Shown: positions 28,200 through 53,503 of the stretch, piece by piece
Position numbering within the stretch: the stretch's first letter is position 1
Layout of the letters: every line of letters begins with the position of its first letter
DNA from: Ephemerocybe angulata
Lineage: Eukaryota > Basidiomycota > Agaricomycetes > Agaricales > Psathyrellaceae
Length of the DNA stretch: 64,000 nt
NCBI GenBank assembly: GCA_013368325.1
Contig: JAACJK010000223.1
Span: forward strand, 682,001-746,000
Direction of reading: 5' to 3'
The notes under the pieces: model-generated
Databases searched by the model: none
What the model was told of the DNA's origin: nothing
The model's input: only the letters and a program-made list of their open reading frames with translations
Translations under genes and position numbers: made by a program

Positions 28200-28208
28200 G
28201 ATTGTTAA

Positions 28209-33160: not shown

Positions 33161-33756
33161 CACGTGTCTGATCATTGTCCTTGTTACGGATGGAAGCCTA
33201 CGGTCTCTGTTACGGCGACGTCGACCCGGCTCCAACGACAACGGCGAAGTCGACGACGACGACGTGCACAGGCTACATAAATCCACGCTCTAACATCTAC
33301 TCCAATATCTCAACCAGCGGCCAACAGGCAAGAAATCTTCGACCTGCGGGATCAAAGCATCGGCGCGTCCATCCCCACGATCCGCTTTTCCCCAGGACCT
33401 TTGAAATGCGGGTGGATCTGTGCTGGAAGTCGGCCGATCGCCCATCAGGTCCTCCTTATCTTACTCCTGGCAGGTCGGGGCATGGAGTGGAGAAGCTACG
33501 ACATACCTCGAGGAGTCGGGTCGTCGCATCTTCCCTGATGGGCTAGGTACTTCCCCATCTCCCATCTTCAAAACGATTGAGGGTAACGACTCGCAGGGCT
33601 GCCACCGTCGGAATGAAGTTCATGCACGCAACTTGCTCGTTGTACCAAGTGGAAACTAAAAGAAACATAACTAAAATTTAAAGTATTCTTGGAATCTTAT
33701 CGCTCTGTAGTCCTTGAAACATGATATATCGCTGTATATAGCATAACTCAGCCACC
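33161..33756. other. Unassigned stretch
   Basis: A GACGACGACG-type simple repeat lies near 33,250. Open frames here show no recognisable domain. Confidence 0.4.
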
Positions 33757-34430
33757 TCAGACCCGGCGTCTATTTCGAGGTGAGATTCGATAGACTAAAT
33801 CATCTTCTTCCGCGACCGCCACCACCCCCTGGACCTGCGTACGGGCCATAGTCCAGATAAGGGCGCCTTTATACAAATCCCTGAACGTAAGATTAAATTC
33901 CGCGAACAAGAGTGCGATGCGATTCTCCTCGATGCTGGATGTAATTTGTAGGGTCAGCCTGTGGTGGTGGGGGATAGGCGTCCTCGCACGAGGAGAGGGG
34001 CCACCGTTGGACCCAGCGCCCGCGCTGCTGGGTAGGAACGCTTGCTTAAAGCACTTCATTAGATCATCGGTCTTGAACACAGGACCTATAGATACCACTG
34101 TTAAATATATCGATACATATGCATAGGCAAGACCGTATCGTCGAATGTAGAAGCGGGAGGGAGTTCGCCCACAAACCGTGACGCGACCGGGGGATTCTGG
34201 ACGGGAGGCGGCTTTCTGGGAGCAAATGATTCTCCTCTCCTAGTATCTCCTGACGGGGTCCGCCATATCCTCGTCTTCCATCCCTATCGTCCCTTTCCCT
34301 CTCCCATGCGACTCTGGAAGGCGGTGGCGGTCCGAGTTGCCTGTGCTTGCTACCACCTCCGGTCCACCTATCTCTGCCAGTATCCCGTCCTCGATCGTGG
34401 TCCCGATCCCGGTTCCGCATGTCCCGTAGC
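33757..34430 (-). pseudogene. Repeat copy related to 15,058-15,420
   Basis: The minus-strand frame at 33,757-34,098 has IALLFAEFNLTFRDLYKGAL and ALIWTMARTQ, corresponding to the fragment near 15,300. The upstream part (34,064-34,420, minus) is rich in Arg/Asp/Gly. The unit lies between the two copies of the duplicated decayed gene. Function unknown. Confidence 0.35.
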
Positions 34431-34509
34431 GGTCCTCATGAGCCGGAGACGCGCTGCCTTTCTGTCGTTTGTACTCTCCACCCCCACCTACCTCGACTTC
34501 CTGGTATCT

Positions 34510-35640
34510 AGGTATACGCCATGTACCAAATCTCGGAGCGGAATCTCGGGCGAATCACAGCCTTGCCATAGAAGTTCTGCAGTCAGGTCGCGAGCACCGC
34601 CTTGTCCTTCTCGACGATTTCCAGAGTATTGCTCTTTCCCCACTTCAGCTAAGCTTCCCGTCTCCCAGCGAGAATACGATCAGCACTGTCAAATGCCGGT
34701 TGCATGGGAAGATACAAGTCATCGAGGGTACAAGGGGTTCAGGTGGGTTGTGAGTCGCCTCCGAGTGGCGCGCGCTTGCGAGGTCAAACATAAACTTCTT
34801 TACTGTGAGTTCGTTGAGGTTGGCTTCGAAAGACTCGAGCTATGCCCAATCCATAGATGGGTTCCATGATTCTCGTCAGGTCTCGGATGCAGAAAGTATC
34901 GCAATGCTTCGTCGCCTGGAGTACCTGCCTCTACCTTTGCTTGGGGGAGATGTTGCTGTTGCTGTTGAGGGAGCTCTGAACTGCGTGATTGCTCGAGTCT
35001 GGCTGAGGTATCGGTTGCCGGTTTCCATCGACGGGGGTCGCCGCTTCATCGACTTCACTTCGGGCGCCGTCGTCATACCCCGGGGGCGACGGTTTCATGC
35101 GCCGATCCTGACGTGCCAGTGTTTCCACTACTAGAGCCCGGTAGTCGACTCGAGCGCCGGGTAGTCGCGCGGAACGTCGCTCGGGATGTGACGGTCGAGA
35201 GATCGTTGATCAGTTGCTCGGCCTCCGCGACATGAACGATAGTCGAGGAGGATATGGGCGATGTAGGCACCTCGTGAAGCGCATTAGACGGATATCGCGC
35301 GCGGGTCCGCACTCGCTCGGCTAATTCGTTTTCTACGAGCAGTTGAGGCTTCACAAGCTCGTCGACTGCCCGTCGTATAATGGGAAGCTTATCGCTGCTG
35401 GTGCCAATCTAGTAAGCAGGCAGTTCTCGTGCGTTGGATCATCCTTGTTTGATTCGATCTTGACTGAGTTGGTGCTCTGTGTTTTGATGCAGCTACGACT
35501 CCTGAAGCGGGTCGGGATCGGTCACCGCCGAGCGCGATCACTTCGTTCGTTGCAGGATCGTCCATTGTACGAGCACAAAATGGAATCGTATTGTTGGGGG
35601 ATAACAGTCCGCCTCTAAGCTGAAGACGCTGCCGGGGCCG
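34510..35640 (-). pseudogene. Decayed gene copy 2 (duplicate of 32,190-33,160)
   Basis: The DNA at 34,514 (CGCCATGTACCAAATCTCGG) matches 32,216, and the part at 35,440-35,640 matches 32,940-33,140. On the minus strand, LQLRGGLLSPNNT matches the N-terminal MRLGGGLFSPGSP of copy 1. Frames are broken. A CAG-like short repeat (TTGCTGTTGCTGTTG, 34,950) lies inside. Confidence 0.4.
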
Positions 35641-37385
35641 TCCCATCTTTACGGACGCTGGTAGGCCTGCTCCAACCCCGAGTCTGCTTCGACCGCCAAA
35701 GTAACGAGCCAAGTTCGGCGCCATAGAACGAATCGCCAGAGGAGGATGGGATGGGGGTTCTATGGCCAGCACATTTGGCCTGAAGAAGCCGAGTCGTGCT
35801 TGGGTCGTCCGTGAAGTCGGATCTTATCTCTTAGACTTCCTCTCTTCCTACGGACGAGTCAGCTACGGACGCCCGCGAGGGGACGCAGATTGTCGTGCCG
35901 TTACGAATAGGCTAGTCGGATTGGTTGGGTTGCATGTACTTCGAGGGAGGCCGATCTGGTGGTACGAGTTGCATTTCAGATGCGAATAGATAGTTCGAGC
36001 ACATGATTGAAGTGGTTCTGCTTCGACTGCCTGTACAATTGTCCGTATGGATAGGGAGCCGGTCCGCCTTCCATCGTACTAAGTCTACAGCGGGCCTGCT
36101 CGGTCAATGCGTTATCGTAGATATGCATGCACCCTCCAGCACACTCCGTGAAGCCGCATGAAGCATTGTTACGCTCTATTGCTAGCCGCGGCAGGGCCCT
36201 GCTGCGTCTGTTTGGTGGCTCGGAGGGAAGATGCGGTGAGCGGTGGTGCGGTCTGCACGGTGCGAGACTGTGATCACAGTCCAACAGAAGGGGAGGGGGT
36301 CGAACGCAGGGCTCCGGCGCCGTTACCGAGTTGGGAGGGAGGGGTCGGTGTGTTGTGTTGTTATGGGTCTTCGATTGTGCTGCGTACGCTGAATCGAAAC
36401 GATGTCCTTTAGCGGTCTGCGAGATATGGGCGCTGAATCTTCGCTCACCTTCCGGTCGCTTAGGATCCCACTCAACACGTCTCCTAAAAGCCGCCCCTTG
36501 CGGGGGATGAACGCGACGCCGAGCAGGATGGAGCAGCCTAAGCGAGCATGAGAGCGTGGTCGCTGGGAGATGGAGGAAGGACGGTCACGGTCACATTGGG
36601 GGCGTGACGTGACATTAGCGGAAACGACCGTGGAAGGTTGGTACACGGACCTTTTTAGATCTGTGGCGTCTATCATTGCCAGTCGATCACCGCCTCGGTA
36701 TCCCCTTTTTTTTTTTTGTTGGTGCCTGTTCAATAACAATCGCCCTTGAACATTCACTTTCCCTCCTTCCTACTCATCCTGCGTCTACCGGTAGAGGAGT
36801 CTGATACACGCCATGGTAACCTGTGCTCATCGAACCTGCGTCACCAACCTCTTCAATTCACGGTGTCTCGGCACCCGGTCATCGCGGGGCGAAATTCAAA
36901 TACTTCAGCCCAAGGTACGTACTTTCGGAATGCTTCTTGACAGCTAAGATACTTACCTTGAGGCGGCTTCTATCAGCCTATCGGACGCAGGGTGGGCGCG
37001 TTGGATTTTGGTAGTTGGGGTGGAGGGTTCTGATCGTTCTATCCTTCCCACCCTCCCTTTGCCCCCTCTCCTTCGCTCGAACCAAACAAACCAGTGTAAG
37101 CTGCTACGTGAGTGGGTGCTACTGTATATTCCATAGTGATCTATGACTTACCTGTGGCTCGTACGCCACTGGATAGAATATCGGTCTCGATGTCTAGGGA
37201 CCGCCGTAATCGTCGCGGGTCTTCGGTCCCCGACGATGTTAGTGAAGGGAGAGGGATGTGCTTGTGCGTTCGATTATCTTAATCTCCTTTCGCTGCCGTC
37301 TGTTCGCTATAACTTACCCCCCCGTAACTGTCCCAGATTTGACCTCCACCCTCTGGATCGGCCCCAGATTGAATACCTTGGAGCG
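35641..37385. other. Unassigned stretch, upstream region of the zinc-cluster gene
   Basis: A run of about 11 T occurs near 36,706. The words AAGGTACGT (36,913) and CTTACCTTG (36,952) of the shared promoter motif lie near 36,910-36,960. No convincing coding region; small frames occur on both strands. Confidence 0.4.
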
Positions 37386-38453
37386 ATGGAAGGTCAGCTC
37401 TCGAAGGTGCTTCGCGCCAATTTCGACAAATACGCCCATACGTTCTGCGACAAGTGCAGGGCGGACAAAGTACCGGTAAGCTACTTCACTCATCGTTCTC
37501 TCGAGCACCCGACCGTCTAACTGGGTGGGATGCCAGTGCCCCGGTATCGACAAGACCGGTGGATGCGCTCTTTGTTTTTTTAGTGGTACTCCAGTGAGAT
37601 AATGTTACATGTGTCGTCCCCCTGTGGTCCGCCGCTGACCCTTAAATGGTACTCTCAGTGCTCTTTGAGGATCTCGAACCAATCGCCGAGCGCGGACGCA
37701 GCATCTACCGGGTTGCCAGACGCCCTCGCCTCCGCTGCGCCGCCTCTCCCTGGAGGGCGGTCCCCGTTGGCGTCGGGAAGTACGGCAGTTCAGTTTTCCT
37801 CCGTCGGTGCCGCTGGAAGGTCAGCAGCAGGGGGTACAGTCCGAAGTGCCGAGCCCGACAGCTTGCAGGAGCGACCGCGCAAAAGACGTCGTGGGGCTGC
37901 TAGTTCGATGAAGGTGTCAACCATTCGGACCTCCTCTGCCGGCGCTCTCGACGGAACTCTCGATACTACAGCTGGAGGCCCTTGGATGGCGAGCCTCGCG
38001 CGCCCTTCCGAGCCTGAGGCGGGTGTCGGTGACGATGCGAGTCGCTCTACGGATCATGCGAGCTCTTCTTCGTTCGACCTGGAGACCGCCCTCGAGGCAA
38101 TGTTGCCGCCCGCTTCGTCAGAATATTCCATTTCGTTGCCCGCCCACGCTCCGTAGGTACATTAGTCGGCCGACTTCACCCTTACTAACTGCTTCTAATG
38201 CAGGGATGGAGGTGCCGCAGCCTGGGAATTCGCGTTCGATGCGGGGATGTACCCGAGACTGGATTGGAGCGAAATGCTGACGCAGCTCGCGGCGCCGTCT
38301 AGGTGTGTTCGGAGTCTTCGAATCGTGCCACTTTACTTACCCCGTTTTGTTATGGGGGGCGGATAATTCCAGCTCCAACCAGGAGAGCCACCAAGACATC
38401 TACGACTTCAACGCGCTGGACGCCGTGGACTGGACCGGTTTGCTTAATCCGTA
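37386..38453 (+). CDS. Zn(II)2Cys6 zinc-cluster protein with acidic C-terminus (putative transcription factor)
   Basis: Five exons fit in frame: 37,386-37,475; 37,537-37,593; 37,659-38,152; 38,204-38,301 (approximate end); then to the TAG at 38,451-38,453. The protein is about 275 residues. The first splice creates a six-cysteine cluster: CDKCRADKVPC, then GGCALCFFSG, then the last Cys after the second splice. Spacing is C-x2-C-x6-C-x8-C-x2-C-x7-C, the fungal Zn2Cys6 pattern. The usual basic residues between Cys2 and Cys3 are reduced. A basic KRRRG stretch may be a nuclear signal. The C-terminus is acidic and aromatic (RLDWSEMLTQL, then DFNALDAVDWTGLLN), like an activation domain. It is the only clear transcription-factor candidate beside the co-promoter genes. 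Confidence 0.75.
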
Positions 38454-39125
38454 GATCCATTGTTCGAAGTCGTCGTTCCGTCGAGCAGGTCGCGTAAGGT
38501 TTCGTAAAGTGGGTTGAGCAGGTCTCAGGGCATCCCACACGTATACAGGCTCAAGTTCTCGATCGACATGGGGCACGTGTTCTGTTACATCGAGCTGGGT
38601 TTGTGGACCTGTATGCTGGTAGTGTATATTCCGGCCGCCTGTAAAGCTGTTATTATGTCGTCTCCTAGTGCGCAATGCCAAGTGGTCGTACCCAGGAACT
38701 TTTTTTGCGATCTGGAGATCCATGATATGTGAGGTGTGGTACATGATACCTTGCTTGGCTGTTAGGCGCCCAAATAAGCGCTGTCTTTACATCTAAGGGG
38801 TTCTTCGCTGTTCTAACGCCATCGATGCCTGAGGTAATTGCGTGCGAGTTGAATCTCCTTGGAAGGGCGCAATTGTATTCGACTATGTATCCGTACGCTA
38901 CTAAGGGTCTGTACATGTCAAAACCGTGGGAGCCGCCTCGCTTGTGCCTGGACGGCGCCTGGGGAGGGAGGATACTCCGTCACCGGCGGGGGGCGACCGT
39001 AGGTTCTAGTCCACATATTGCTGACCCAGCTGAGCGTACGGTAGGCGCGCGATCAAATGAACGAAGAGAGTGCGAGAGCGATGCGGTTAGCTTTGGCAGG
39101 GGCGGGCATCGGAGTCGAAAGTTAC
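38454..39125. other. Unresolved stretch
   Basis: Open frames occur on both strands (for example minus 38,916-38,665, with SGIDGVRTAKNPLDVKTALIW). None shows a recognisable domain, and splice models on either strand are possible. No gene is called. Confidence 0.35.
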
Positions 39126-39735
39126 TTACGCTCCAACAGTCCCGAAGATCCATTCGTGCTCCAGTCTGGCCATGTTCGCGTAGTATTTGACCTCCGGGGT
39201 GTGGCTTCTAGAGTAGCGCGCGATAACGACGTGGCCGAACCAAGGACGCTTGAATCGTTTGGCAATGAGGGTGTTGAAAGGAGGCGGGCCGGTGTTGCCA
39301 GGGTCTACGTAGATCCTGTACACAAAGGGTAGGGGCCATTCGCATCCGGGATACGTCGTCAGTAGCATACTGACGTATCCGTTAGGGAAGTGTGATTCTT
39401 CTAGATCGATATATTCCACTTCTACCCCGTGCTCGCGCACGGTGTACGCAGTCGCATGCCACACGCGTGCACGGTCGTCGTGGTTGAGACTGGACGATAC
39501 GTCCACGATTCTCGTTTCTAGCTACGAGGAGGTCGGTTCAGGCGTCAGCTCGTGCTTGGACGAATGGATGTTCAGTCTAGGATTTACTCACAGACAGAAA
39601 CTTCTTCAATGCTCCTTGTCCTTTGGGATGCTGTATCACGGTGATGAAGGTCAGTGCGGGTGCTTGGTCCGGGTCATATGGAGGACGCCTTACCTCTACA
39701 AAGCCGGGAAGATCTTCCCAGTGCGTGGAATGCAT
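39126..39735 (-). CDS. Uncharacterised 179-residue protein
   Basis: Two exons (39,735-39,592 and 39,521-39,126) join in frame across a 70-bp GT-AG intron. The ATG follows a TATAAAG box (39,782-39,788, minus strand) by about 47 bp. The protein begins MHSTHWEDLPGFVEV and has HPKGQGALKKFLSLETRIVD at the junction. It then shows VWHATAYTVREHGVEVEYID, a proline/aromatic stretch (GCEWPLPFVYRIYVDP) and KRFKRPWFGHVVIARY. A second in-frame intron in exon 1 is possible. I believe similar proteins occur in other mushrooms but know no function. Confidence 0.6.
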
Positions 39736-40029
39736 GTTGGAGGGAAGGGTTAAGTAAAAATGGACGCTGTTTTTGGGGTCTCTTTATATCTAGCATGCTG
39801 TGGTCTTGTGTTTACATGAAAGTAGCTCAATGTGTCTTCTAAAGTTAATATGAAAGGTCTGCATCTTTGCCGTCGCCATCACTCATTCTACCTTTCCCCC
39901 GGGTTAACCCTATATTTGTTAGACATCAGACGATGAGTCGTCGTCCATTTGGATCTCAGCTCGGTTGGCGAAGTAATACCTAGAACTGGAAAACCCTAAG
40001 TACCTTTAGATTAATGTGTTAAATATCGC

Positions 40030-41236
40030 TCACCTCCACACAAATGGCTCGCCAATACTCATGTACGTCCCCAAGTCGTCGCAGACCATGTTCCAGTCTA
40101 GTGCTTCAAACGCTGGGCCCTGCCGGGGTGCTGGGGGAAGCATAGGATCTGGAAGGCAGTGTGTGAGCATTGAATTGTAAACCGAGCCGCGGAATAGTGT
40201 TCCCAGGCGGGGTATGGATGAACGCGAGGCTGGCGTCAACTTACCGTGCCCTTTCCTTGGAATGGTCCAGGTGAAGCCGTCTCCTAGGCGTCGAGACCCG
40301 GTTTCGGCGGTGAAGTAGGTTTTGCGGGCGTTAGGCGGGCCTTTCACGATCTCGAACGAGACGGTGCGAAAGTGCGACTCGACCGAATACGGCCTTCCCA
40401 ATCGGATGTCCAGCAAGTGAAAGTTCCTCAGAGCAAAGGCCAAAGATAGACGGAATGTCGACCGCGCAAAAGGGGCTCCAGCTTCAAAATTGGTCATATA
40501 ACAGGTTAAAGGCGCTGTGTCGTAATCGTGGTGAGCGATCGGCTGACGAACACGGACGCATGTACGGGGTCGGGTAGAGAGGGATACCTGATGCAGATTA
40601 AAATTGCTCACTTATAGGTCCGCCTAGGACGTGCCTGTACGGCTCGCACCTCACCAGGTGTAGGTTGACTGTGATGTATTCCCCTCTGCATCTCTTGCGA
40701 TATTGAAAAAGATAACCGACGTGATCTTCGGCGGCCCAGCTCTTGTCCGCTGCGAGGGACCAGGTGTTGTGTGTGACACCCACTCTCCGCAGCAGGTCCC
40801 CCACGAGATCGTGTGAGGTGGACGTCTTCCTGGTGCGAGGGTGAGTCAGGCGGAATCCGTCGTCTCGAAGTACCCTATTCAGCTGATAGTACTTGGCCAG
40901 CGTGGTACAGATGTCCAGCGGGCACTTCTTCGAGCCAAATCTAAGAAAGAATCGCAGCACAGCGCCCCCGTAAATCATGGCGTGCTTCCCGTCGATTAAG
41001 GACAGCAGGGTCGCTGGCCTGGGTACGTATAGTTTGAGGAAGGTTTCGAAATCCCAGGTTCGTCGGCCGTATCCGTAAAACCAGTAACGAAGTCGAGTGT
41101 TCAACTTTTCGAGCACCTGTATCTCCCAAACCTCCATGGTCATAAGCAGGTGCCCGACTGCAGCATCTGGAGCTGAGAGGAGGAATCTTTCTAGAGGGCC
41201 CATGAGCGACGACGGGACTGGCTGAGGCTTAGCCAT
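40030..41236 (-). CDS. F-box/nucleotidyltransferase-like protein, paralogue E (divergent)
   Basis: Two main exons: 41,236 to about 40,613, and about 40,520 to 40,030. The N-terminus has an F-box-like helical segment (AVGHLLMTMEVWEIQVLEKL). Next is YYGRRT-type sequence, then the NTase-like turn AMIYGGAVLRFF and CPLDICTTLAKYY, in which GG and D-I-C replace GS and D-x-D. The second exon has CYMTNFEAGAPFARSTF and TGSRRLGDGFTWTIP, matching paralogue F (MNYVTHKEAVSVFPRATF). TATATA lies about 45 bp upstream of the ATG. It shares a divergent promoter with the R1 homologue. Confidence 0.7.
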
Positions 41237-41609
41237 TTCGTGACTGGATGAGGGTCGTTCTCGTCTTCGAATAGCTCGAATATATAGCTGGATCTGCTCA
41301 GCTCGTGAGTAGCTTACGTATGAGTGTTATGGCGCGTTTCTTACCCAAGGTGGTTACCTATCTTTATAAGCGTACGTGCGTAGGTCTTAAGCGCCCAGAT
41401 TAGTCACGATGCAGGTATGGACGTTACCTGTCACTCTAGTGCCTAAGGTTACAACCTATAGCAGGGTGTGTTAGGTACCTTTCGTATTCGCGTCTCGCAT
41501 CCTCCATCATGCCGCGCGTCCGCGTATTCATCCTGAAGCCGGAAACGGAGTATAAATACAGTCTCTCCAGTTGGAGGAGAACGCCGATAAGATATTCGCT
41601 CCTTGCCTC
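41237..41609. promoter_or_regulatory. Divergent promoter between paralogue E and the R1 homologue
   Basis: TATATA at about 41,281-41,287 serves the minus gene, and TATAAATACA at 41,551-41,560 the plus gene (about 50 bp before the ATG). Between them are AAGGTGGTTACCT (41,346), TAGGTCTTAAG (41,381), TTACCTGTC (41,424), CCTAAGGTTAC (41,441) and TTAGGTACCTTTCG (41,470), copies of the shared motif. Confidence 0.6.
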
Positions 41610-44600
41610 ATGCCGATGTCTGTCAGCGATGATTATAGTTGCTTTGTGTCGAAACGGAGTGAGTTAAGGGTGCCCACCCCTCCCGTCACTACGTCATCGT
41701 CTGGCTGATCGCTTGCCGTGATATGATTTCGAAGACGGGTTCGTTTGCACTAGGTACTCGTGCGCTAGCCGCATGCTGACGCTCCATCCAGTACCGTTGA
41801 AGAATATAGTTTGCAAAAGGTGAGTGCGAACAGTGGAATTCGGTCTAAATTCGTGCCTTACCTGTGTGGATGCGTGCGACGGGACGTGGGGTATATCCCT
41901 TCCGTTAGGTGGTCGAGAGGCTTTTACGAGTAGGTGGCCCATCATTTCCGGTATCATTGAACAAGAGGTGCCAGCTGCATTCGAGGCATTCGAGGCCGAG
42001 GGAAGATCACCTCCCGGACGGAGTGTGGTGGAGAGGTGGGTAGCGGTCTTTCTTATCATGCTATTAAGACTTAGTTCCTCCAGAATCGCTATGTCCGGAC
42101 TTACAGTCTGTAGCCCAGCAGTGGATTCATGCGATATAGATGTGAGGTATCGTAGCCGGCCCTGACTTTATTCGCTGACTCGAACTCCCGAGCAAGTCAG
42201 TCCTGGCAGCCATTGCGGGATCGCTGTTATCATTGGGCGCCCCTTACGTTTTCCTCAGCGCCAGCCTAGAGCGTTCGAATATTTATAAGGCTACTCCGAG
42301 CGGGTTCGGGGACTCTATGAAGGTGGCGTATGCGAGAAACCTGATCACCTCAGAGTTCATGGAGATTGTGTCGAGACATCAACTTGCTGTCGACGCGATG
42401 ATCTGCCATGAAAATGATCGCCGCTTGAATTAGTCCGTACTGCCTTCGGACTCGGATCGTGCTCGGCTAACGTAGGTATGCCTTCCCCCGTTCAGCTGGG
42501 CTCTCCGATCCTTGAGATGCACCTGCCTCCTCCGGGATGGTAACCTTCTTCTTGAGCGGCCCCAGCATTTGTGGATGCGTACCGCGCTTCACCTGTACCA
42601 GGATGACCTGCGCCAGGTGCAAGCGACATACGAGCTAATGGCTGCGCTGAAGATGTTACCTTCTGCTTTCATCCTCGCTGGGTCTGGAACGAGCAAGACG
42701 CTTATTAGACCTGCCCGCGCTCTCCGGATGGATGGCTCCGTCAAAGATATCGCGGAGGCAGTTGGATCGGCGGCGTTGTTGGCGAGAGGGGGAAGTCATG
42801 TAGGTGTCGGGGTGCAAGCGGTTCCTAGCAGGGGGTAGGTTCCATTTATAGAGGGCTGGACCTTAGGTTCTCATTTGTTGCTTTGCAGCGCAGTGGTGAA
42901 GGGCATCGTACAAGCGGGCATCCCCTTGCTCGTAAAAGCTCTAGATGCCTCCCTTCGCGCGTTAGGTCATTTGGTCGACACCCCATTGGGTGGGCTTACG
43001 ATCTATCTCGAGCCATGGCACGCAGACATCGAAAGTATCCTGAGGAGCTTGGGGATCAGGGGCGGACCCAAGGTTGAAGGTGCCAAGGTGGACTACTGCT
43101 TGCTGATAAGCGACCTCTTGTGAGTTCGAGTTTATTGCGCCGGTATGGCAACCTCCCGCGTTCTTCGGCTCACGCACCAGACCCCAGTATGCAGCGAATA
43201 CGAGCAGATGATAAGTGGACTCTTTTCTGTCCTACGCTAGCGGCAGAGCTGGATACCCTGGACGGACCTGCTTTCGAGGCTAAATACGCCATGCTCGAGT
43301 CGGCTGGTAACGGCTGCAAGAAGATTAGCGCTCTCAAGCTCTGGAACAAGATTTTGAAGGCAGTGATAGATACGGGGGGGATAACGATGGTTTTTAAGGA
43401 CACTGTCTACGGTGAGGGTGTCATGTCTGGCTCCCCTGTACTTTCCTTAAGCTTTTGCTCTCTTCAAGCCAAAGTTCGAAGGTCACCTGCCGGCGCTTGT
43501 TCGGCGACGGACGACTTGAGGGATAAATTCGTGAGATTCACGCACCACCAAGTGACGACCCAATCCACTAGCATCTCTCTCGTCCTTCCCTCCTTTGTTG
43601 CTGGAAACGATGAGACTGACTTCGCTGGGTTGGAGCAAGCGAGTCGTCAAGCGGTTTCTGCACTTAACGCTCTGTCGGTCCGAACGGCGCGTCCCCCAAC
43701 TCCCTTAGGGATCCCCGATACGGACCCTGATGCTATATCGGTCGGTTTCGTGGGTTTCGCCGACCTGCTCTCAGTTCTGGGACACCCGTACGACTCTGAA
43801 GCAGCCCGCGTTCTGAACATAGCCGTATCCGAAAGTGTTCAGCACAGCGCTATCGAGCGAAGTTGCGAGTTGGCGTCGGCTCGAGGCTTTTCTCGCGGAT
43901 CTCCATCCGTTACAGCAGATTTCATTCGCGAGTACCGATGGGAAAAACGGGAACCCTCAGATAGGTTCGACTGGAGCGCCCTTCAATCCAGGGCGGAGAG
44001 ATATGGAATCCGAAACCAGTTGGTGACCGCCTACGGATCTGACGCTATGACGGCCCTCATTGCGGGTTGCAGTGAAGCCGGGGAGCCATACAGCAGGTGA
44101 GCAACTTCGCGCCTTATATCTGAACAATCCTCAGAGGCAGACGCCTTCCCCAGCCTGGTGTCGGTGGTGTCGAGTCCTTGCGGAGTGTTCGCTGGTATTC
44201 CTGTGCACCTTGTGGAAGCTATTGATCGAACCTGCGAGTGGAACGCCGGTATAAGGGATAGGATTGTAGCTCAAGGAGGTATGTCTTCCAGGTTATCTCG
44301 AATCATTCGTTCTCTGATACTACTGGATATCTCAGGCTCCGTTCAGCAGGAGAACAGTATCCCGAGTTTGGTTCGGTCAGCCTATCGCACAGTGTGGGAC
44401 ATGGATCAAGACGTCGTGTTGAGGATGGCGATTGATCGTGCGCCTTTCTTGTGTCGTGGACAAAACGTGCAGCTGTATCTTCGGAAACCTTGCGTGATAG
44501 AGCTGGTACGTCTGGATGTCAGCTTGGGAGTGGGGCTCCGATTGACTTCCACCTCCCTTTTTCATCAGAGTAAACTGCTCTTCCAAGGGTGGATCGGTGG

Positions 44601-44748
44601 ATTGGCAATCGGACTTTCTGCCCTCCATCGAAAACCCGCCCGTCGACCTTTCCCTATCCCTCTCCCTTCTGACGAACCCGCTGTGGTTCCTCCTGATGCG
44701 CATCGCGACGGTTCGGTTGGTACCTCTTCGAATCCCATTTGTCTGTAG
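41610..44748 (+). CDS. Ribonucleotide reductase large subunit (R1) homologue without catalytic residues
   Basis: About nine exons: 41,610-41,658; 41,735-41,819; ~41,934-42,141; 42,197-~42,430; 42,496-42,834; 42,889-43,119; 43,188-43,411; 43,469-44,096; 44,154-44,748. Class I R1 landmarks run in order: SRIAM...LAAIA, EFMEIVSRHQLAVD, LLERPQHLWMRTAL, DGSVKDIAEA, TIYLEPWHADIESIL, DLFMQRIRADDKWTLFCP, VGFVGFADLLSVLG, RFDWSALQSRAERYGIRNQL and AYRTVWDMDQDVVLRMA. The NLCTEI active-site loop reads DLRDKF, the VCNLAS cysteine is Ser, the first cysteine (SSCFLL) is lost, and the C-terminal Tyr-Tyr dyad is Ser-Ala. The fold seems kept but reduction chemistry should be impossible. Near 42,431 an in-frame TAG precedes any canonical donor, so that junction is unresolved or damaged. 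Confidence 0.82.
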
Positions 44749-47420
44749 CGCTACCGCAGCGGTTTTAGAGATAGTTTACCTATAGCCTGTGCAGTATTTT
44801 AGTCGGCCGAGATAATTACCTGGCTGATGTGCGTACGCTGCCTCGCCTTGATCATATTCGGTCTGGTGTGAGGGTCTGCGCGCCCCTCATCATCCTTCGG
44901 TCCCTGTAGCTTCATATTGTCCATTCGTTAGCATTTCTGTCATCGTCGGTACATTGGGGTGTGTGTCATCTACGCCTCCGTGTATGATGTTTACTTATGA
45001 TACGGGCGCCGGTCCGTCCTGCTCGTACTGGTACACCAGAGCTTGATCTAGGTCGCAGTGCTTGCGGTCTTGGATGGGTGGGAGGCGGAGCCTTTGCAGA
45101 TATATATAGAGTCTTTGGCACCTATTAATGAAAGCTCCTTTCTGCCTCCGCTCCTTTGTAAGAGATGCGGGTCGCTAGCTCTCCCCGGGGCTTAGGACCT
45201 GAGAGGTTCAGCTGCACGAGGCGGGCTAGCCGCTAGGCGGAGGCGCGTACCCCAATATGAGAGCTTATTCGGCCTGAAAGGTCGGCCGATGCGATGCCTC
45301 GGGACCGGTCCGGGTGATGGGAACGGACTCCGCGAGGTTACGATGCTCCTTCATGTCCACCTCATCAATTTTTGCATTCACCAGCAGCCCGCCTTTGGAC
45401 AATCACCTTCCCGAGGCATCTTTGGATGAAACGGTAGGCGGCGGAGGGGTCTGAATCGTTTGGCTGTTCTTCCGCCGCACCCTTATCGGTTCACAGCTCG
45501 GATTGACGGTAGGTTGGGAGAGGGATCGAAGGTGTTTCCCTTCGGTACGCACCGAGAAAGAGACTTGCTCGGTCTCCGGGTTGGATAGACATTCGTCGGC
45601 GCAGACGGATAGCTTGGGATCGTGACGGTCGGCTCAACGTCGACGGTTAACCGTTTCAAGCCGTAGAGGGCCCAAGGCAAGTCTGTGCCACTATGCCTTA
45701 GTACAGGAATCCAAGGGTGCGCAAGCCACATCGCGAGTCGGACCATGTTATGTTACGCTTGATCGTGCTCTGGCTTCTGGGGATGTCAGTTCCCCCCCCC
45801 CTCCCTCGTGCCAGGGTCTGGACGGAGTCGTGGGTTGTGTCGCTAGAGCCCCTCCAGCTCGGCTGTGCGGAGGGCAATACCTTCAAGATGTTGAAGCTGT
45901 GTCCTTCACCTGGAGCTGCCAGGACCATCTTGCTTGCGTTTAGGAAGAGCCCGGGTTTTCCTCCTCGGGAAAAAAACGTCCACTACCTAATCCACGGTGA
46001 AAGAAAGGGAGCGGAAGAAGCTAGTCTCTTTCGCTGTCGCCTTGGCGAGCCTGAGTCGTCGCAGGTGGGCGTTAGTGGCTGGAGCGAGTGGATGGCGTAA
46101 GGAACGACCCGGTCTCGTCGAGTTGAACCCTAGCGTTCAAGGATGGCTCCTATCTGGAGGGTAGATCTGCTCGTCGGACGCCGTGCACTGATTGCGGACT
46201 TTATCCCGCTGCTTTTTGCTCTCCCTTCCCATCTTTCTACGGGGCGCGTGGACTGTTTCGCTGGTCGTGAGGTTCGCTCCTTACCTTTCGCGTCTTTTTA
46301 CCCCTCCCTCCCCTGCCCTTCATGGTGGCCCCTGTGGCATGGGTGGCGCGAAATAACAGGCACCTAAGGTGAGAGTCGGCTCTCACCGGGTACAGGCGTC
46401 TACTCACCTTTTCGTCAGTCGGCTCGGTCACCATCCCTTCTCGTGGCGTCTCCAACGATATTATCCCTTTTATCGTTCTGCGTAAGTAAATCTTCACCGT
46501 GAGACCGGTCCGTGGATGTTACTGGCTGCTGGTCTAGCGCATGAAGGAGGCTGTTGGGCTAGCGCATGCAGGAGTCAGTTTGGGTATACGTGTGGACTTT
46601 TGCAGAACGCGTTTGATGCTGCAAAGCTGGACGTAGACGTCCGGCGTTCCGTCTACTCCTTCTTTGGCTCCCCCGAGCATCCCAGCCGTAGCTGGCTCCA
46701 ATTGCGAGCAGCGGATGGTGGTCGGTCTGTGACAGTCGGCGGTCGGCGCAAGGTCAGACCGGCTTTCGTGTTCACTTACTCGCCAGGACCTAGATTCTTC
46801 CGCCTCCCTCTTCCCCATTCCCACTCCCTCTGGTGCGACGTCGACGTCGATAAAGCGTTGAGACCTGATACGCTTAACAGTTGTGATCAATCTTTAGACG
46901 ACCGGTATCGTCCATCCTCCTTGCCGGTTCTTCCTCTTACCTATTCCTCCTTCTAATCAACCTGGTGCAAGAGCTGACGAAGGGGGAGGCTGAAGGGAGG
47001 CCAGGTGGGAGGGGTCGCTTCCGTATGAGTTCCAGGTCGGAAGCTCCGTACACAGCGAAGGACCCAGAGAGGCTTCATCCTTAGGGTTTGTCTCTCTGGG
47101 AAAGTTGTGGACATGGGGCGTCGTTTTAATCGGCCAGCCGCCGTCCTTGTCCAGCTTGGTCCACTTGCTCCGGCCATCTGGTGATCTAGGCTGCGACAAC
47201 CTTTCTTATAAGCGCTTAGCTGGTTGGTGAGTATCCGTACGTTGTGGCCGCTCTTGTCAGCGCAGGTTGCTGACCTTGCGCCAAGGGGCACCATACAAAA
47301 ATGAAAACCAATACAGTCTCCCGTACCTTGGCCAGAACGGCGGAAGGCGAGTCATCAACCCTCCTAGCCACTCCCATCCGTGCGTTCGTCTAACGGTGCT
47401 TAACCATCTGGCTTATAGGG
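44749..47420. other. Stretch without a recognised gene
   Basis: Two adjacent TATATATA-type boxes occur near 45,100, and GCACCTAAGGTGAGAG and CTCACC words near 46,361-46,410, like the shared motif. Open frames (minus 45,483-45,746; plus 45,717-46,100; minus 46,957-47,199) show no domain and conflict between strands. A gene may be hidden, but none can be supported. Confidence 0.4.
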
Positions 47421-48404
47421 ATGGAAGCTTACCAGCTGGCTAGACAGATGCTGGCAGCTAGAGATCCTACCCGCTGGGGGAGTAAGAGTACCGGAGGACA
47501 TGAAGACATGCGAACGTCGTTCGTGTGGCTCTATCTGAAGCTCAAATACGGAGAGGATGACAGTCGCAAAACCGTTGCAGGAAGGATATTCAGGATTACC
47601 AAAGTCCAGTCCAATACGGTTCCAGCAGATACACATATCGGCTGTGCTCGCCAATCGTCGTCCCTCGTGGACATGGAGCTGGTCAAACGTCTGGGGCTTT
47701 CGTATGACGTTGGGGCTATGAAGTCGGCGATGGGGCACGAACCTGCATCTAATTCTTGCTATATACGGTTCACAGTGTGCCGGTCTCCGAACCCCGGCTC
47801 CTACGAACTGCATTATATGCCTCCGATTACCAGCAGTCCCCTTGAGCGCCTTACGGAGCCCACCCTCCCATCACCTCCCTCCTTGATCTCGCTCTTGTAC
47901 GTCGCCCTGGTCGGTAGCCCCTTCGAAGGCGGTACTATAGATCTACGCGCTCCATGGGCCTTCACCTGCTTCTGCGACCTCCGTCTCCTTGACAAAACGA
48001 GTGGATCCGCGCTATCAGAGTGTCGAGTCAAGCTTCAGGGTTACGGTTCGCGTTATAATCGAGTGACTCGGTGCGCAGTTCCTCTGAGCCTTGTCCAAGA
48101 GGTCCAGGAATTGGACTTACAAAGTAAGCTCTCCATCAAGGCAGAGGTTTCGCGTACAGAGCTGATAACTCGAACAGATACCGTTATCGAACAGTCTCTA
48201 ACCCTCAACCTCAATAGCGTCTTCGCTTTGAGTGCTATCAACGCCGTTCTTCCTATGGTGACACCCTTTACCCGGATGATTTTCACGTACGCCCTGGAAC
48301 GTCAGTTCATTCCGTCAAGATTCCCAGACGTATTCTCGCGGAGTAGCACACTCGGCCTCGCTGCGTCCGCTCCTGACTCCCAGGGAACCTCAGGTGAGCT
48401 GTGA
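47421..48404 (+). CDS. Uncharacterised 327-residue protein
   Basis: A single open frame from the ATG at 47,421. The sequence looks like a globular protein (for example EDMRTSFVWLYLKLKYGEDD, then SLVDMELVKRLGLSYDVGAM) with a proline-rich hinge (TEPTLPSPPSLISLL) and a C-terminal half rich in leucine and polar residues. No family is recognised, and no membrane segment is evident. A splice at the last codons (GGTGAGCTGTG) to an exon near 48,455 is possible. CTTAACCATC and a CTTATAGG box lie just before the ATG. Confidence 0.5.
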   Translation: MEAYQLARQMLAARDPTRWGSKSTGGHEDMRTSFVWLYLKLKYGEDDSRKTVAGRIFRITKVQSNTVPADTHIGCARQSSSLVDMELVKRLGLSYDVGAMKSAMGHEPASNSCYIRFTVCRSPNPGSYELHYMPPITSSPLERLTEPTLPSPPSLISLLYVALVGSPFEGGTIDLRAPWAFTCFCDLRLLDKTSGSALSECRVKLQGYGSRYNRVTRCAVPLSLVQEVQELDLQSKLSIKAEVSRTELITRTDTVIEQSLTLNLNSVFALSAINAVLPMVTPFTRMIFTYALERQFIPSRFPDVFSRSSTLGLAASAPDSQGTSGEL

Positions 48405-48752
48405 GGTGCCTGTTCTCCAATTGTTAGCGCGACTAACTCTGCGTTCGCTTCGAGATGGGACCTCGACATGCACGTCTCCGTCGTCGCCTCCTTCATAACG
48501 TCGTACGGGGAAAGGGCCCTTACTCGCATAAATGCTCTTCAGTTTTGTCGTGCAGGTTCCATTGTTCCAGAAGATGGATCCAATGGCAGACACCTCGAGG
48601 GGGTACACACCCTGTCGGCCTTACCTCCTCGCCTTCCCTTTATACTGCAGCAAATCGTGTATTCGAATCAAACGGCATATAATAATCCATGGCGTGCATA
48701 TTACGCCTTATAATAGTAACATGTATTATTCTGCAGGGAGCGTCTTTGCTTC
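48405..48752. other. Gap between convergent genes
   Basis: Small frames occur on both strands, and AT-rich sequence at about 48,675-48,740 is probably 3' untranslated. No gene is supported. Confidence 0.4.
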
Positions 48753-49928
48753 TCATTGTAAAATGTACCAAGGGTACAAGTAATCCCACAGTTCGGGCTC
48801 AAAGATTCCCAAACGATACACCTTGTTGGCATCCTTCCCCTGTTCGTTGAGCAGGCTAACTTCGAACTGTACGCCCTCGGTTGGCTCGGCGCCGTATCTG
48901 CTACGTGCTTCTTCTCCTGCGAACGCTGTTTCTCCGTCTAGGGAGCAGCGAGGGTGAGAATAATAATACCGGGTGCTCGACCATAAGTCTCTCTCTAGAC
49001 GTTCGCCTGACTTGATGGTTCTCACCTGTAAACGGAATTTTCCAGCTGTGCTTGTCCCTGGCTGTTCGCGCGCCCAATACCAGCTTGGGATTGGGATCCG
49101 ATGTCTCTATTCGGTACCCTCTGGCTTCGTACTTGGATTTCCATGCTGGATCCCACATCGGTCCTAGAGATTGCCGACTAGAAGGATATGACAGTTTGTG
49201 CATAAAGGTGGCCCGAGGGAACACAGATACGGCCTCCTTGTGGGTCACATAGTTCATGGCTACAGCTCCACGAAGGGAAGATGGTACGGGTCAGACCTCT
49301 GCACTTTCGTAGTCGAAGGGGGCTTACTAGAATGGTAGGTGTATATTAGGTGGTGCACCGGGTTCTGAGCGACGGCTATGATTTGAACTTTCAACACAGG
49401 AGAGAACCTGCTTATGTCGCCGCTTGTCGGCCTCTCGAAGTCGAAGATGTCTATTATACCATCTGTCCCTCCACCGACGCAGAAATTGTTCGATGTCGTC
49501 ATGGACAACACGTCGGCGATCAAGGGGTAATCCTCATTAGGATTCCTTGGTCGCTCTACCCGCGTATATCCATGCGATTCGACGTAGCGAGTTAACGCCA
49601 GGACGCCTCCTACCCGTGTTATGATGTCTAAATCAGACCTTGGGGAGGGCCCTAACCGATCCATAAACCGTAGCGCTTGGGACCCGCTAATCACGGCACC
49701 AGTACGAGCCAAGGTGGCTCTGAACGTTCCGCTATCCCAGAACCAGCACCCCAAAAATCGGTCGATGTTCCATCGCTTTTGCTGGTAGATTTCCATTACT
49801 TCGCGTAATACGGTGGATGTCTTGGATAGCCGCATCAGGTCGCCGGCTGGCATCCTGTCGAACAGCTTGGCATGAAGGGTTATCTGCGACGACGCCAGGA
49901 ATCTTTCGAAAGGGCTGAGAGGGGACAT
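48753..49928 (-). CDS. F-box/nucleotidyltransferase-like protein, paralogue F (best-preserved motif)
   Basis: Three exons: 49,928 to about 49,331, about 49,257 to 49,030, and about 48,960 to 48,753. The N-terminus is F-box-like (LHAKLFDRMPAGDLMRLSKT), followed by YQQKRWNIDRFL. The core has TGAVISGSQALRFMDR, then PRSDLDIITRVGG. GS followed by S-D-L-D is the canonical nucleotidyltransferase metal-site pattern, kept here though blurred in the other paralogues. The second exon (MNYVTHKEAVSVFPRATF, then KYEARGYRI and DKHSWKIPF) matches paralogue E. ATATATAAAG (50,001-50,010, minus) lies about 73 bp before the ATG. Confidence 0.75.
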
Positions 49929-50464
49929 AGGTGGTAGAGGTCAATACCGAGAAGGGTGCGTGGTCAGCAGGATGGCAGCCCTTTCCGTCTAGGCGGGGTA
50001 CTTTATATATCTAGCCGCCGATAGCGATGATATCTCCGTAGAGCTTGTTCCTCCAGATTTGGCTGGGTTACTCGTCTACACTCTCTTCATTATCGCCGTG
50101 AGTACCTACGCTAGGTCTCAAGGTAAATATGTTACCTAGTATGACCTAAGGATGTTACCTTCGTAAATAGCCGAATAGGCGCCCGTCAGTGACGGAAACT
50201 TTCAAACGGGAAAGTCCATCTAAGCTATGGTGCTTACCTGGCCATCTTCTAGTCGGTCCCTTCACGTAAGTCTCCTCTGCATCTTACCTTGTCCCAGTAA
50301 CGGTCCTTAGGTTCGTCGTAGCCATCTTGCTACCAGCTTCTCAGGTAAAGGTCAGTATCTTACCTCTTGTCTCGATGCGGATATCTATATATAGAACCCG
50401 TCCGCCCTATATAAAGGGCTCAGCTGGTTCGGTCCTTGAGTTTCTGGCCCAACTAGCATTTCAG
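49929..50464. promoter_or_regulatory. Divergent promoter between paralogue F and the 459-residue gene
   Basis: The richest motif cluster in the window: GTGAGTACCTACG (50,099), AGGTCTCAAGG (50,115), the inverted repeat AGGTAA-ATATG-TTACCT (50,122-50,138), CCTAAGGATGTTACCTTCG (50,145), GTGCTTACCTGG (50,230), CTTACCTTG (50,284), GGTCCTTAGGTTCG (50,302), AGGTAAAGG (50,344) and CTTACCTC (50,359). TATATAAA (50,408-50,415) precedes the plus-strand ATG by about 50 bp. Confidence 0.65.
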
Positions 50465-52073
50465 ATGGCAGCCTCTCTGAAAGATTTTAACAAGTTGAAA
50501 CATCTGCGGTATTCTGCAAACGAAGCCACGTTGACGGAGGTGATGGACTCCCTCAAGAGGGGCAGCAAAAGGTACACCCTAAAAAGGTCTACTCAGTTCA
50601 CTAGCACTTTTTTGGTACGCGCGAGGTTTTCAGGGAGACATTCTCTGGCTAAACGTGGCTAGCTGTGGGATCGTGTCCGTAAAGACGTTGCCGTATGCAC
50701 GCACGCCTTCGTCATCCTGTACGCTACGCCGTTGGACACCGGGAACTTCTGCCCTGAGGGAGCCCGTCCACCTATGGAATTCAAAGGGCAGATGAGGTTA
50801 GTTTTGTGCGGTCAAAACGAAGCGCAAACTCATCGGCGCCGCTTGGATGCAGGAAGTATGAACCCTCTCTGGCCGCACAGGTGTCCCTGACCTTCGATAC
50901 TCGGGTGGAACCCACCCTTCACGAGACTTTGTCGGTGAGCAAACCGTCTGCACGGTTGGAAAGGGTGATGGACTCATTTCGGGACTGTCCGACAGACCTT
51001 GGAAGAGTGGGGGAAGACAAAGGGAGACTTCTCGACAGAGGGCAAATCGAGAAACCCGTGGAACTCACCTTATGCTGTAGCCACGCAGAACAGGTTCACG
51101 GTCGCTTCCCCTTTGTTTCAGAAGCGAACTGGATTCAACGTGACCGACGATAAATACGTAGTCGACTATGAAGTTCATCCTTGGGTTGAGAAAGCCTGTG
51201 TACCACACAACCCCTCTTGGGTTCCCAATCCCAATCTGGCCCGCTTCATGCACCGGAGACACAACGACGTGCTCGTGGACATCCTCAAATCGTCCAACCC
51301 GAAGCTAGTCCCTGGTGACCTGGTCGTGATGACTTTTAAAATTGCGTTCAGCGCTTCCGGAACGTATTGGCAAATGTCCTTCGCGCCCATCCAAGTCATT
51401 CGCATGGGTCAGATTGCCGAGGCGGTGCTGGGTAAGGTGGGCGATGCGGAAAATAACGCTCGGTTGGACCTTCCTAGAGCGGGAGAGCGGCTTAAAGCGT
51501 TCAGCGGTGAGTTAGGATATTTCTCACCTTCGGTATGAGATCTTACTCAATAGACCGGCGGGTTTATCAGAACCTTCGTTCTCCGATATCAAGACGCCCG
51601 ACAATAGCAGGCCCAGCTCGCCCACTGTCGAGGACGCTAGTAACATCGCCGGCGGGCCCGCTTCGAGTCCGATCCCTGAGGGCGACGGCCTCGTTGCTAA
51701 CGATGACGGAGTGCAGTCGGGGTCGTCTACTTACGATCCGGATCTTGAGTCTGGCTCTGAAGGCAAGCCTCAGAAGCGCAGGAGCGTCTCTTGGTCTTCA
51801 ATATCCACGGCCGAGTGCAGCCCGCTCACTCCTGCGCCAGAGAGTCCGTTCGTTTCGGATCGCGAGGTTGAAGGTGATCAACCTCTGGAGTACGTCCGCA
51901 TTTCGGCGCGACATAAAGTGCAGGAAAGAAAATCGAGCAGATCAACTCAGGAGCGAAGGGATAAAGCTAAGGGGGCGGAGACAGCGCCCAGAACTAGGAG
52001 CACCAAATGCGTCAAGAGAGAGGCCGTTAGCCCTGAGAAGAGATCGAAGCGTAATGTCAGGAGCAAGAAGTGA
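50465..52073 (+). CDS. Uncharacterised 459-residue protein with basic, serine-rich C-terminus
   Basis: Five exons fit in frame: 50,465-50,614; 50,663-50,796; 50,853-50,934; 50,996-51,506; 51,571-52,073. The N-terminal two-thirds look globular (MAASLKDFNKLKHLRYSANE, then YEVHPWVEKACVPHNPSW, and VPGDLVVMTFKIAFS followed by YWQMSFAPIQVIRMG). The GDLVVMTF...W.P.F..VR stretch recalls an OB-fold nucleic-acid-binding protein, but this is only a guess. The last ~165 residues are low-complexity, first acidic (YDPDLESGSEG), then basic (SPEKRSKRNVRSKK), and suggest a nuclear protein. It has the shared promoter design. Confidence 0.6.
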
Positions 52074-52353
52074 TACTGGTTCCGATGATGCGAATCCACG
52101 TCATGATCATTGTTTGGGGATGAAATAGGTACCAAACAACTTAAAGGCTACGCAGCTTAAGCCTCTTACATATTCAAGCGGTTCCTGGTCTTGACTGTAT
52201 GCTCACATCCTTACCTTTCGCTCCCGTCGCTACCGGGTACCATGATGTACTACGTATGTAGGTGCCAAATACTACATCATGTCTCTCGCTACACTGTCTC
52301 CTTTAAAGAGGCCCTGACTTATCTGCGTGAATCCATTCCAGTTTCTCTGCCTC
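52074..52353. other. Short gap upstream of paralogue C
   Basis: TAGGTACCAAAC (52,128), CTTACCTTTCG (52,211) and GGGTACC (52,236) resemble the shared motif. No clear TATA box was seen. Confidence 0.4.
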
Positions 52354-53503
52354 ATGTGGTTATTCCTCAGAGGTACGTTTGATAGTCCCTCACGTCGCCG
52401 ATCATCGTCTGACGGGATTTGGGCTACAGCCGATCCCAAGAGCTATCCCTTACCAGTGGAGCTCCAGGAGCGCATCTACCGTTACCTTCCACTTCGGGAT
52501 CTTATATCGCTAAGCGCCATCCCGAACCTGAAGGACGACATGGAAAAACACTTGGAAGCGCGCATTTTGAGGCTCCTGGTTTCGTTCAGGTTGAAAGGGA
52601 AGGACACTCTCGATATGATGCGGTCCACAGGCACGGTTGTGTCCGGTTCTGCAGCCTTAGAAATCGTGTCGCCCGGTTCCTGTGAGCCTCGCGATCTGAA
52701 CCTGTACTGTCCAGCGGGTTCGGCACAAGGCGCGATCCGGATGATCCTTGGACTCGACGGCTTCGTAGAATCTCCCTATCCTCTCAAGACCCTCTTAGCT
52801 GAACGCACCCCGTTCAGTAGATTCGAGGTTAACAACGGGATCAAGCGCCTCTACCGGTTTGTCCATCTTCCGTCCTCCAAGGTGGTGACTCTAGCAGAGT
52901 CTATATCGACTTCCTCCGTGGCCCCTGTCCTTTTCTTCCACTCCACTTTGTTGATGAATTATGTATCCGGAAGCGGGGTAGTATCGTTCTATCCTGAACT
53001 CACTTACGATAATCTCGGTGCGTGCGTCTGCTTCTTGTCTTCGTTCGTCCGTCTAACCTATATTAGGTCTTCTGAACTACTCCCAGCACTTTGATGAGCT
53101 CCATAAACCGGGCGTGTTGGATCGCTGGGAGCACGTCGGCATGGACATATGCCATGATTGTCGAGACTGGCATCAAGATCACCCCAGCCTCTCTCCCAGC
53201 GCCCGGAGGGGGATGTGCCAGTGGGCTTACAGGCAAACCAATGACGAGTGGACCGACCGGATGGATTTTCGGACGGGGCAGCGGAAGCGCTTGGGCCCCA
53301 TACTAGCCTGGCGGTTGGGGCATGTGTATAAGGGGAGGAAGGACGTCATGTATCACAAGACCAGCGTCCATCTGGTCCATGAAGAGTGGTTCAAGCTATG
53401 CTTGTACAAGACTGCTGTAGAATGGGTCAGGTACTACGCGCCTATTGACAGCGCGACGGGCGAAATAGATTCGGCCAACTGGAAACGCTCTTTCCCCCAG
53501 TAG
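52354..53503 (+). CDS. F-box/nucleotidyltransferase-like protein, paralogue C
   Basis: Three exons are proposed: a 19-bp first exon (52,354-52,372), then 52,430-53,017 (588 bp) and 53,067-53,503, giving 347 residues. The F-box is YPLPVELQERIYRYLPLRDL. The NTase-like core is TVVSGSAALEIVSPG, then PRDLNLYCPAG. The segment FEVNNGIKRLYRF and LMNYVSGSGVVSFYP follow. The C-terminal domain reads HFDELHKPGVLDRW, the cluster ICHDCRDWHQDH...CQWAYR, then GPILAWRLGH, HLVHEEWF, WVRYYAPID and a terminal WKRSFPQ. The first exon rests only on phase and donor quality. Confidence 0.78.

Follow-up and report, generated by a model that had tools for sequence, protein, structure and literature searches.

A probable ribonucleotide reductase pseudoenzyme in a repeated, putatively Helitron-type block of the ink-cap mushroom Ephemerocybe angulata

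We analyzed a stretch of 64,000 nt (the window) from a contig of the ink-cap mushroom Ephemerocybe angulata (Psathyrellaceae; C114, positions 682001-746000), which contains a homologue of the large subunit (R1) of ribonucleotide reductase (RNR) with all of its catalytic residues replaced. The R1 gene is very probably a selectively maintained pseudoenzyme and not a pseudogene, and it is probably a resident gene of a mobile element of the Helitron type. As a whole, it is reasonably likely that the window holds a giant Helitron-type element with virus-like S-phase genes, in which a maintained R1 pseudoenzyme would have turned into a non-catalytic scaffold. Other loci are named by their contigs (C130, C26, and so on) in the same 58.7-Mb assembly, and the genomic copy counts given for R1, the small subunit (R2), the helicase, and other genes are lower bounds. 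The membership of R1 in a family within a repeated block with Helitron, R2, and cyclin genes lay outside the view of the preliminary description of this DNA.

Two long exons of the R1 gene matched PF02867 with E values of 9.3e-37 and 5e-6. Spliced alignment of the window DNA to the canonical R1 of the host (C65) revealed eight introns of 54–68 bases (42142-42196, 42433-42495, 42835-42888, 43120-43187, 43412-43468, 44097-44153, 44279-44335, and 44506-44568) with no stop and no frameshift, and a family-profile model gave nine introns, again with neither. The stretch 43412-43468 (57 bases) may be exonic, because it is open, in frame, and coding in the public annotation. A short first exon (41610-41658), to whose sequence the start of P0006 from another E. 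angulata assembly is similar, was read by eye outside the aligner model and brings the total to about ten exons; the splicing described previously was confirmed, and its count of about nine is corrected accordingly. The publicly annotated protein (D9611_010238; P0002, 1115 aa) starts late and fuses R1 to the orphan gene that follows it (47421-48404); owing to this mis-fusion its structure model is not meaningful past about residue 560.

The fold motifs LERPQH, YLEPWHADI, DLF/MQRI (joined over an intron), and RNxL (as IRNQLV), which the preliminary description had listed, were all found in the spliced model. Homology to PF02867/PF00317 and the R1 barrel in predicted models place the window R1 in the R1 sequence and fold family. 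The barrel is the outcome of the structure check proposed earlier; as the folding alignments contained active R1s, its retention is partly built in, which lessens its weight in favor of our interpretation.

None of the seven catalytic residues (C225, N437, C439, E441, C462, Y730, and Y731, in E. coli numbering) is kept in the window R1. In addition to the changes in the finger loop and the Tyr-Tyr relay (Table 1), the redox cysteines are replaced by C225A at codon 42713-42715 and by C462S at codon 43564-43566. These losses had been read from the letters alone, and they proved to extend further: the substrate phosphate loop PMPTAS is YGSDAM, and the loop 2 residues Q, K, and R are H, T, and P, respectively. 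The EPWH and ERPQ motifs are retained. The specificity-site Asp and Arg positions differ in the window R1, but they are matched in only 5 and 4 of 10 aligned active R1s, respectively, too few to judge a loss by. The C-terminal CxxC tail lies outside the window R1 model, and the models of C117a and the host gene likewise end before it. Among 15 active R1s (10 R1s that include those of the host and Hygrophoropsis but not Mycena, plus 5 catalytic R1s of the element type), 122 columns were invariant; the window R1 keeps 74 of the 115 non-catalytic ones and none of the seven catalytic ones (P = 0.0011), which excludes chance as the cause of the catalytic loss. In the same test, the other 17 dead rows gave P values of 0.00085 to 0.39, with C18, C26, C153, C117b, C216, and C16a missing 0.05.

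The window R1 is accompanied by a set of genes that recurs across the genome. The Rep protein (HUH, two Tyr) in the window is fused to a Pif1-type helicase, as expected of a Helitron, and was matched at at least 22 other loci with identities of 50–74%. No stop was present at 18 of the 23 loci scored from 200 first-look candidates. In ten helicases, including those of Coprinellus, Gymnopilus, and Trametes, the HUH and paired-Tyr residues were invariant and the Walker residues invariant or nearly so. At about 13 loci, an R2 (PF00268) copy lies 6–50 kb away from an R1 copy, and R2 stands head to head with the helicase at a distance of at most about 1.5 kb in 13 of the 23 loci; C189, at 3.4 kb, would add a 14th. 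The cyclin gene lies within about 1.2 kb of the helicase 3′ end at 11 other loci and on the 5′ side in C133, C11, and C154b. The same loci repeatedly carry gene A, gene S, the cyclin gene, the F-box gene, and the protease open reading frame (ORF); the F-box gene and the protease ORF are found chiefly in the subgroup of the window. The protease ORF was found at C130, C50, C189, C76, C181, C18, C220, C140, and C185.

The window and C130 copies are collinear from the helicase to 55 kb, with the left genes matching from 3.3 kb. The span from the helicase to gene S is 36–54 kb in 12 of 15 copies, and 65, 24, and 16 kb in C16b, C68, and C216, respectively. Identity to the window falls in step between genes, with rho values of 0.80–0.95 (15 copies) and, for cyclin, 0.91–0.96 (10 copies); copies lacking any of the genes were excluded, and the p-values are unreliable because the copies are related. 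The ratio of nonsynonymous to synonymous substitution rates (dN/dS) against C130 was 0.06 for the gene S exon 50969-51535, the best conserved exon tested, and was not computable for the helicase and R2, whose dS was saturated. Linkage of R1, helicase, R2, and cyclin was established within the one E. angulata assembly; in Coprinellus aureogranulatus, same-clade helicases (45–48% identical) and element-type R1s both occur, as a co-occurrence in which linkage was not seen.

Several observations weigh against a mobile element. Neither Helitron termini nor insertion sites could be identified, and the right end was not found, no systematic terminus search having been made. The left limit falls at about 2.7–3.3 kb, between a dispersed repeat (1638-2688) and the first element match (2863), and in a check for a hairpin there the fold of 2840-2920 was no better than shuffles. 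Inverted repeats of at least 40 bases in the whole window comprised one internal 68-nt pair and no terminal repeats, and a CTAG scan (173 found, 230 expected) was uninformative. An adjacent R2 is missing from 9–10 of the 23 helicase loci: no R2 match was found near the helicase in C68, C11, C133, C154b, C114b, and C216b, and R2 is farther off in C17, C216, and C16a. The copies are old, as judged from the helicase identities, and haplotypes or assembly duplicates may account for those that are nearly identical. Between the window and C130, R1 (57%) is less identical than the helicase, R2, gene A, and gene S (72–85%), and is near the cyclin (59%) and the gene at 47421 (53%). Finally, pieces of the C130 copy's right end stand at the starts of contigs C131, C133, and C65, so that some copies may owe their spread to subtelomeric duplication.

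This last point leads to the strongest rival, in which the block is a host gene family produced by partly subtelomeric segmental duplications of a host cluster, with the Helitron helicase as a passenger or a domesticated gene. In addition to the contig starts, the introns of the block genes, the many members of its F-box family outside the block, and the failure to find termini fit such a history. Against it, 18 of the 23 long Rep-helicase loci are free of stops, and they diverge in step with their neighbors; both helicase and element-type R1 are present in C. aureogranulatus; and the copies on C18, C220, C185, C68, and C117 are separated from the contig ends by over 150 kb. Moreover, the C130 and C189 copies are 99.9% identical over 3 kb inside, whereas 1.5-kb flank samples taken about 9 kb away at matched offset are dissimilar, a difference that could also come from an indel or haplotype variation. 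We therefore regard host duplication as a rather unlikely explanation of the block as a whole.

The combination of R1, R2, and cyclin is a virus-like gene set. These could be the deoxynucleoside triphosphate (dNTP) and cell-cycle genes of an integrated large DNA virus or virus-like replicon that had acquired a Helitron Rep-helicase, and dead R1 homologues are known in betaherpesviruses (PMC5469499). We consider such an origin improbable, since no capsid, packaging, or DNA polymerase family was found by Pfam among 30 window ORFs and exons (some overlapping, a subset of all ORFs in a block with many orphans), PHROGs matched none of 10 window proteins, and one viral-contig scan with the helicase alignment returned 33 pattern matches and no relative.

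We modelled 23 R1 loci, namely the canonical host gene (C65) and 22 element-type loci including the window; a further R1 piece on C73 is outside these models. After copies about 99% or more identical were merged (C26/C74/C76/C23/C25, C133/C11, and C154a/C16b), 16 distinct element-type R1s remained. The R1 of C117a has all seven catalytic residues, and the other 15 have 0 to 5: five in C16a (C462 and Y731 lost) and C117b (C225 and N437 lost), four in C216 (N437, E441, and Y731 lost), and 0–3 in the rest. The fully catalytic R1s of the element clade are those of C117a, Coprinopsis marcescibilis, and the second-assembly Rrm1, together with both C. aureogranulatus proteins.

A tree of 38 sequences was built with the seven catalytic columns removed and 200 bootstrap trees; no herpesvirus R1 was included. 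The element R1s formed one clade (100/100) with the relatives from C. aureogranulatus, Candolleomyces, C. marcescibilis, and the second assembly. The Boletales R1 (Hygrophoropsis) was placed next outside (100/100), and the attachment to other eukaryotic R1s was not resolved. This R1 (P0060, Hygrophoropsis aurantiaca), which sits on a long branch beside the clade, keeps 7 of 7 catalytic residues and is possibly an element-type R1 in Boletales. The best tree requires two state changes, and one change sufficed in none of the 200 bootstrap trees; taken by themselves, the branches with strong support are compatible with a single change, and Candolleomyces, with gaps at the Tyr-Tyr columns, was kept out of the count. 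Repeated catalytic loss is likely, not proven, because different residues are missing in different branches. None of 10 R1s of the group, Hygrophoropsis included, reached the Pfam cut-off for the ATP-cone; two gave sub-threshold matches, and some public models may start late. This activity-regulating domain seems to have degenerated early, which would fit an unregulated supplier of dNTPs.

The partner subunit was compared in models of seven element R2s and three others. The window R2 keeps the diiron ligands and the radical Tyr (ADG, ENIHAEMY, VES, and RDERLH), and it ends shortly past NPYSFLDL, lacking the C-terminal R1-binding region (NFFEKRVSEY). The loss of this helix argues against a working R1-R2 pair in the window copy. 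The C130 R2 is in the same state, C18 and C220 have Phe in place of the radical Tyr, and C185 and C216 have lost ligands. In C117a the ligands, the radical Tyr, and the C-terminal helix are all kept; the catalytic R1 there is thus accompanied by an intact R2, and in other copies the two subunits decayed in parallel. Two R2 genes with ordinary motifs, apparently the host's own, lie in opposite orientation about 1 kb apart at C146:36605-39148, and two more ordinary-looking R2s are on C223 and C98.

Selection on R1 was assessed by dN/dS (NG86) for 13 pairs. The nearest relative of the window R1, C130, is equally dead, and this pair gave 0.19 (dS 1.7), with 235, 159, and 378 differences at the first, second, and third codon positions, respectively. 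Two further dead pairs, C26/C18 and C220/C140, gave 0.19 (dS 1.2) and 0.16 (dS 1.6). Of the other pairs, two were identical, two had saturated dS and no value, and two had extreme dS (ratios of 0.03 and 0.10). Broken copies used as pseudogene-like yardsticks gave 1.10–1.15 (C25) and 0.60–0.92 (C23) against C26, with 1.10 and 0.92 in the set of 13 pairs; both are weak controls, as the indels of C25, a small contig that matches C26 at 99% identity, could be errors of assembly. All members of the larger R1 clade of the window are dead, and selection between them therefore most simply post-dates the catalytic loss.

Counterparts in a second E. angulata assembly were also found. P0006 is 98% identical to the dead C26 R1 over 657 residues, and P0158 is 78% identical to the dead C68 R1 with the same residue states. 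We infer a second-assembly origin for P0158, P0159, P0161, and P0164 because they have no close match to the modelled copies; only P0006 has a different locus tag. No counterpart of the window R1 itself was present among the matches listed, so that the search for orthologues proposed earlier was answered for sister copies.

These results bear on whether the window R1 is a plain pseudogene on its way to loss. Its catalytic residues are all gone, it evolves faster than the helicase, R2, gene A, and gene S, and some sister copies are broken: C25, C11, and C23 in both model runs, and C133 with one frameshift in both. In the profile run, moreover, the C130 R1 model had two stops close to its start and C16b had one frameshift, and dN/dS was higher in the near-identical pairs C154a/C16b (0.61, 6 differences) and C133/C11 (0.30, 8 differences). 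On the other hand, the window R1 had no stop or frameshift in every model run, 15 of the 16 distinct types, all except C133/C11, had an intact representative in at least one of the two runs, dN/dS between dead relatives is about 0.19, well under 1, and C26 and P0006 are conserved across assemblies. An ordinary pseudogene was thus rejected on the open frame and dN/dS and is very improbable, and the earlier proposal of a pseudoenzyme is upheld. A reductase with altered chemistry that still acts on nucleotides would account for the barrel homology and the retained EPWH and ERPQ motifs, and is scarcely tenable with all mechanism cysteines gone, PMPTAS changed to YGSDAM, and loop 2 rewritten.

The pseudoenzyme reading has a precedent in betaherpesvirus R1 homologues, which are described as catalytically inactive, as having lost most catalytic residues, and as acting on RIP1 (PMC5469499). 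Like these proteins (HCMV UL45 and MCMV M45), the window R1 was kept despite the loss of catalytic residues, and the analogy drawn in the preliminary description is apt for the kind of change. It differs in its mushroom carrier with a Helitron Rep-helicase, in the presence of R2, in being spliced, and in having paralogs with graded loss beside catalytic relatives. In trees without herpesvirus R1, the element R1s form their own clade beside the Boletales R1. The HELPO1 and HELPO2 Helitrons of Pleurotus ostreatus combine a Rep-Pif1 helicase with extra genes in one element (PMC4289320), whereas the E. angulata block carries a conserved multigene set over tens of kb. DNA transposons of fungi, Helitrons among them, carry TET/JBP dioxygenases thought to aid the element itself (PMC12730594), a different enzyme; the words 'ribonucleotide' and 'cyclin' occur nowhere in either paper. 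Starships are giant fungal elements of 42–606 kb (PMC13066641) and use a tyrosine-recombinase captain, whereas the linked gene in the E. angulata block is a Rep-helicase, no search aimed at a captain having been made. Among the open-access papers listed, no fungal Helitron with ribonucleotide reductase was found by titles and the beginnings of abstracts.

The features of the window are summarized in Table 1. Neighbor genes were compared at 26 loci, of which 22 are R1 loci. Gene A was found at 19 other loci genome-wide with 45–73% identity, plus weaker ones. Searches of the PDB gave no match for gene A and only two weak matches for gene S (E values of 0.14 and 0.3). F-box-like paralogs with an SGSAAL...DLNLY motif lie at 24509-27159, 49263-49940, and 52318-55085, and the exons tested were below the Pfam cut-off; the SGSAAL...DLN family is presumably nucleotidyltransferase-like. 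A degenerate repeat array just beyond R2 (15919-17711) had no match in the C130 comparison, and within it PF00240 (ubiquitin domain) was matched at 5.8e-17 in 16379-17314 on the minus strand, which is polyubiquitin-like. Directly left of the element, the dispersed repeat of about 1.05 kb at 1638-2688 recurs in C86 (99%), C69 (97–98%), C98 (85%), and C139 and C22 (70%). Short tandem repeats with 34-base spacing occupy 61761-62085.

Table 1. Features of the repeated block in the window
Feature	Position	Strand	Evidence
Repeated element, minimum extent (ends not defined)	2863..55085		Six-frame collinearity with C130; linked paralogs in own genome
Retroviral-type aspartyl protease ORF	3066..4049	-	PF08284, 1.7e-10; beyond F-box gene also at nine other loci
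F-box-like gene	4334..6004	+	PF12937, 1.2e-6; beyond cyclin in eleven other loci
Cyclin-like gene	6348..7103 (ORF; first ATG near 6468 by reading)	+	PF00134, 3.6e-12
Helitron Rep/helicase, 2016 aa	7389..13439	-	PF14214, 2.8e-32; PF05970, 4.6e-21
R2-like small subunit	13972..15127	+	PF00268; C-terminal helix absent, diiron ligands and radical Tyr retained
F-box/'SGSAAL..DLN' family gene	24509..25622	-	59–66% identical in C130; two exons without Pfam match
Second F-box/'SGSAAL..DLN' family gene	26048..27159	-	68–74% identical in C130
Conserved orphan, F-box/leucine-rich-repeat-like by eye	29505..30951	+	65–67% identical in C130; no Pfam match
Gene B, conserved orphan, two exons	39129..39744	-	Main exon matched in 16/26 loci compared
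Gene A, conserved orphan lying upstream of R1 in divergent orientation	39950..41236	-	First exon matched in 18/26 loci compared
R1 pseudoenzyme gene (very probable)	41610..44748	+	Spliced, open, all catalytic residues replaced; Pfam and spliced alignment
NLCTEI finger loop to DLRDKF	43513..43530	+	N437D/C439R/E441K
Tyr-Tyr radical relay to Ser-Ala	44617..44622	+	Y730S/Y731A
Conserved orphan gene	47421..48404	+	Matched in 6/26 loci; 53% identical in C130
Gene with SGSQAL..SDLD motif and weak similarity to gene A	48756..49940	-	
Gene S	50399..52070	+	About 20 loci, 46–84% identical
Two further F-box/'SGSAAL' family genes	52318..55085	+	

The element may be, or may descend from, a giant autonomous Helitron that once had a working RNR (R1 and R2) and a cyclin, which would have favored its replication by providing dNTPs and S-phase conditions. 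Later, R1 would have lost catalysis in most lineages and been kept as a non-catalytic scaffold that acts, as in betaherpesvirus R1 homologues, through protein contacts, here with subunits of host RNR, with the R2 of the element itself, or with replication or cell-cycle regulators. The scaffold role of the dead R1 is a tentative proposal, and any one of these partners, taken singly, is doubtful. Among the functions suggested in the preliminary description, regulation of host RNR by the window R1 is conceivable by inference, and nucleotide binding has become less likely with the loss of the substrate-phosphate and loop 2 motifs from this copy. The wider picture, in which ink-caps harbor giant rolling-circle elements with a kit of R1, R2, and cyclin, and in which R1 was made a pseudoenzyme more than once, leaving an active-to-dead series in one genome, seems to us evenly poised. 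If it is correct, genes for nucleotide supply and the cell cycle can be carried by a transposon lineage as well as by large DNA viruses, and a natural series from enzyme to pseudoenzyme under selection (from 7/7 in C117a down to 0) would exist in one genome and its close relatives. The function of a dead R1 would then become testable in a mushroom, with no virus needed.

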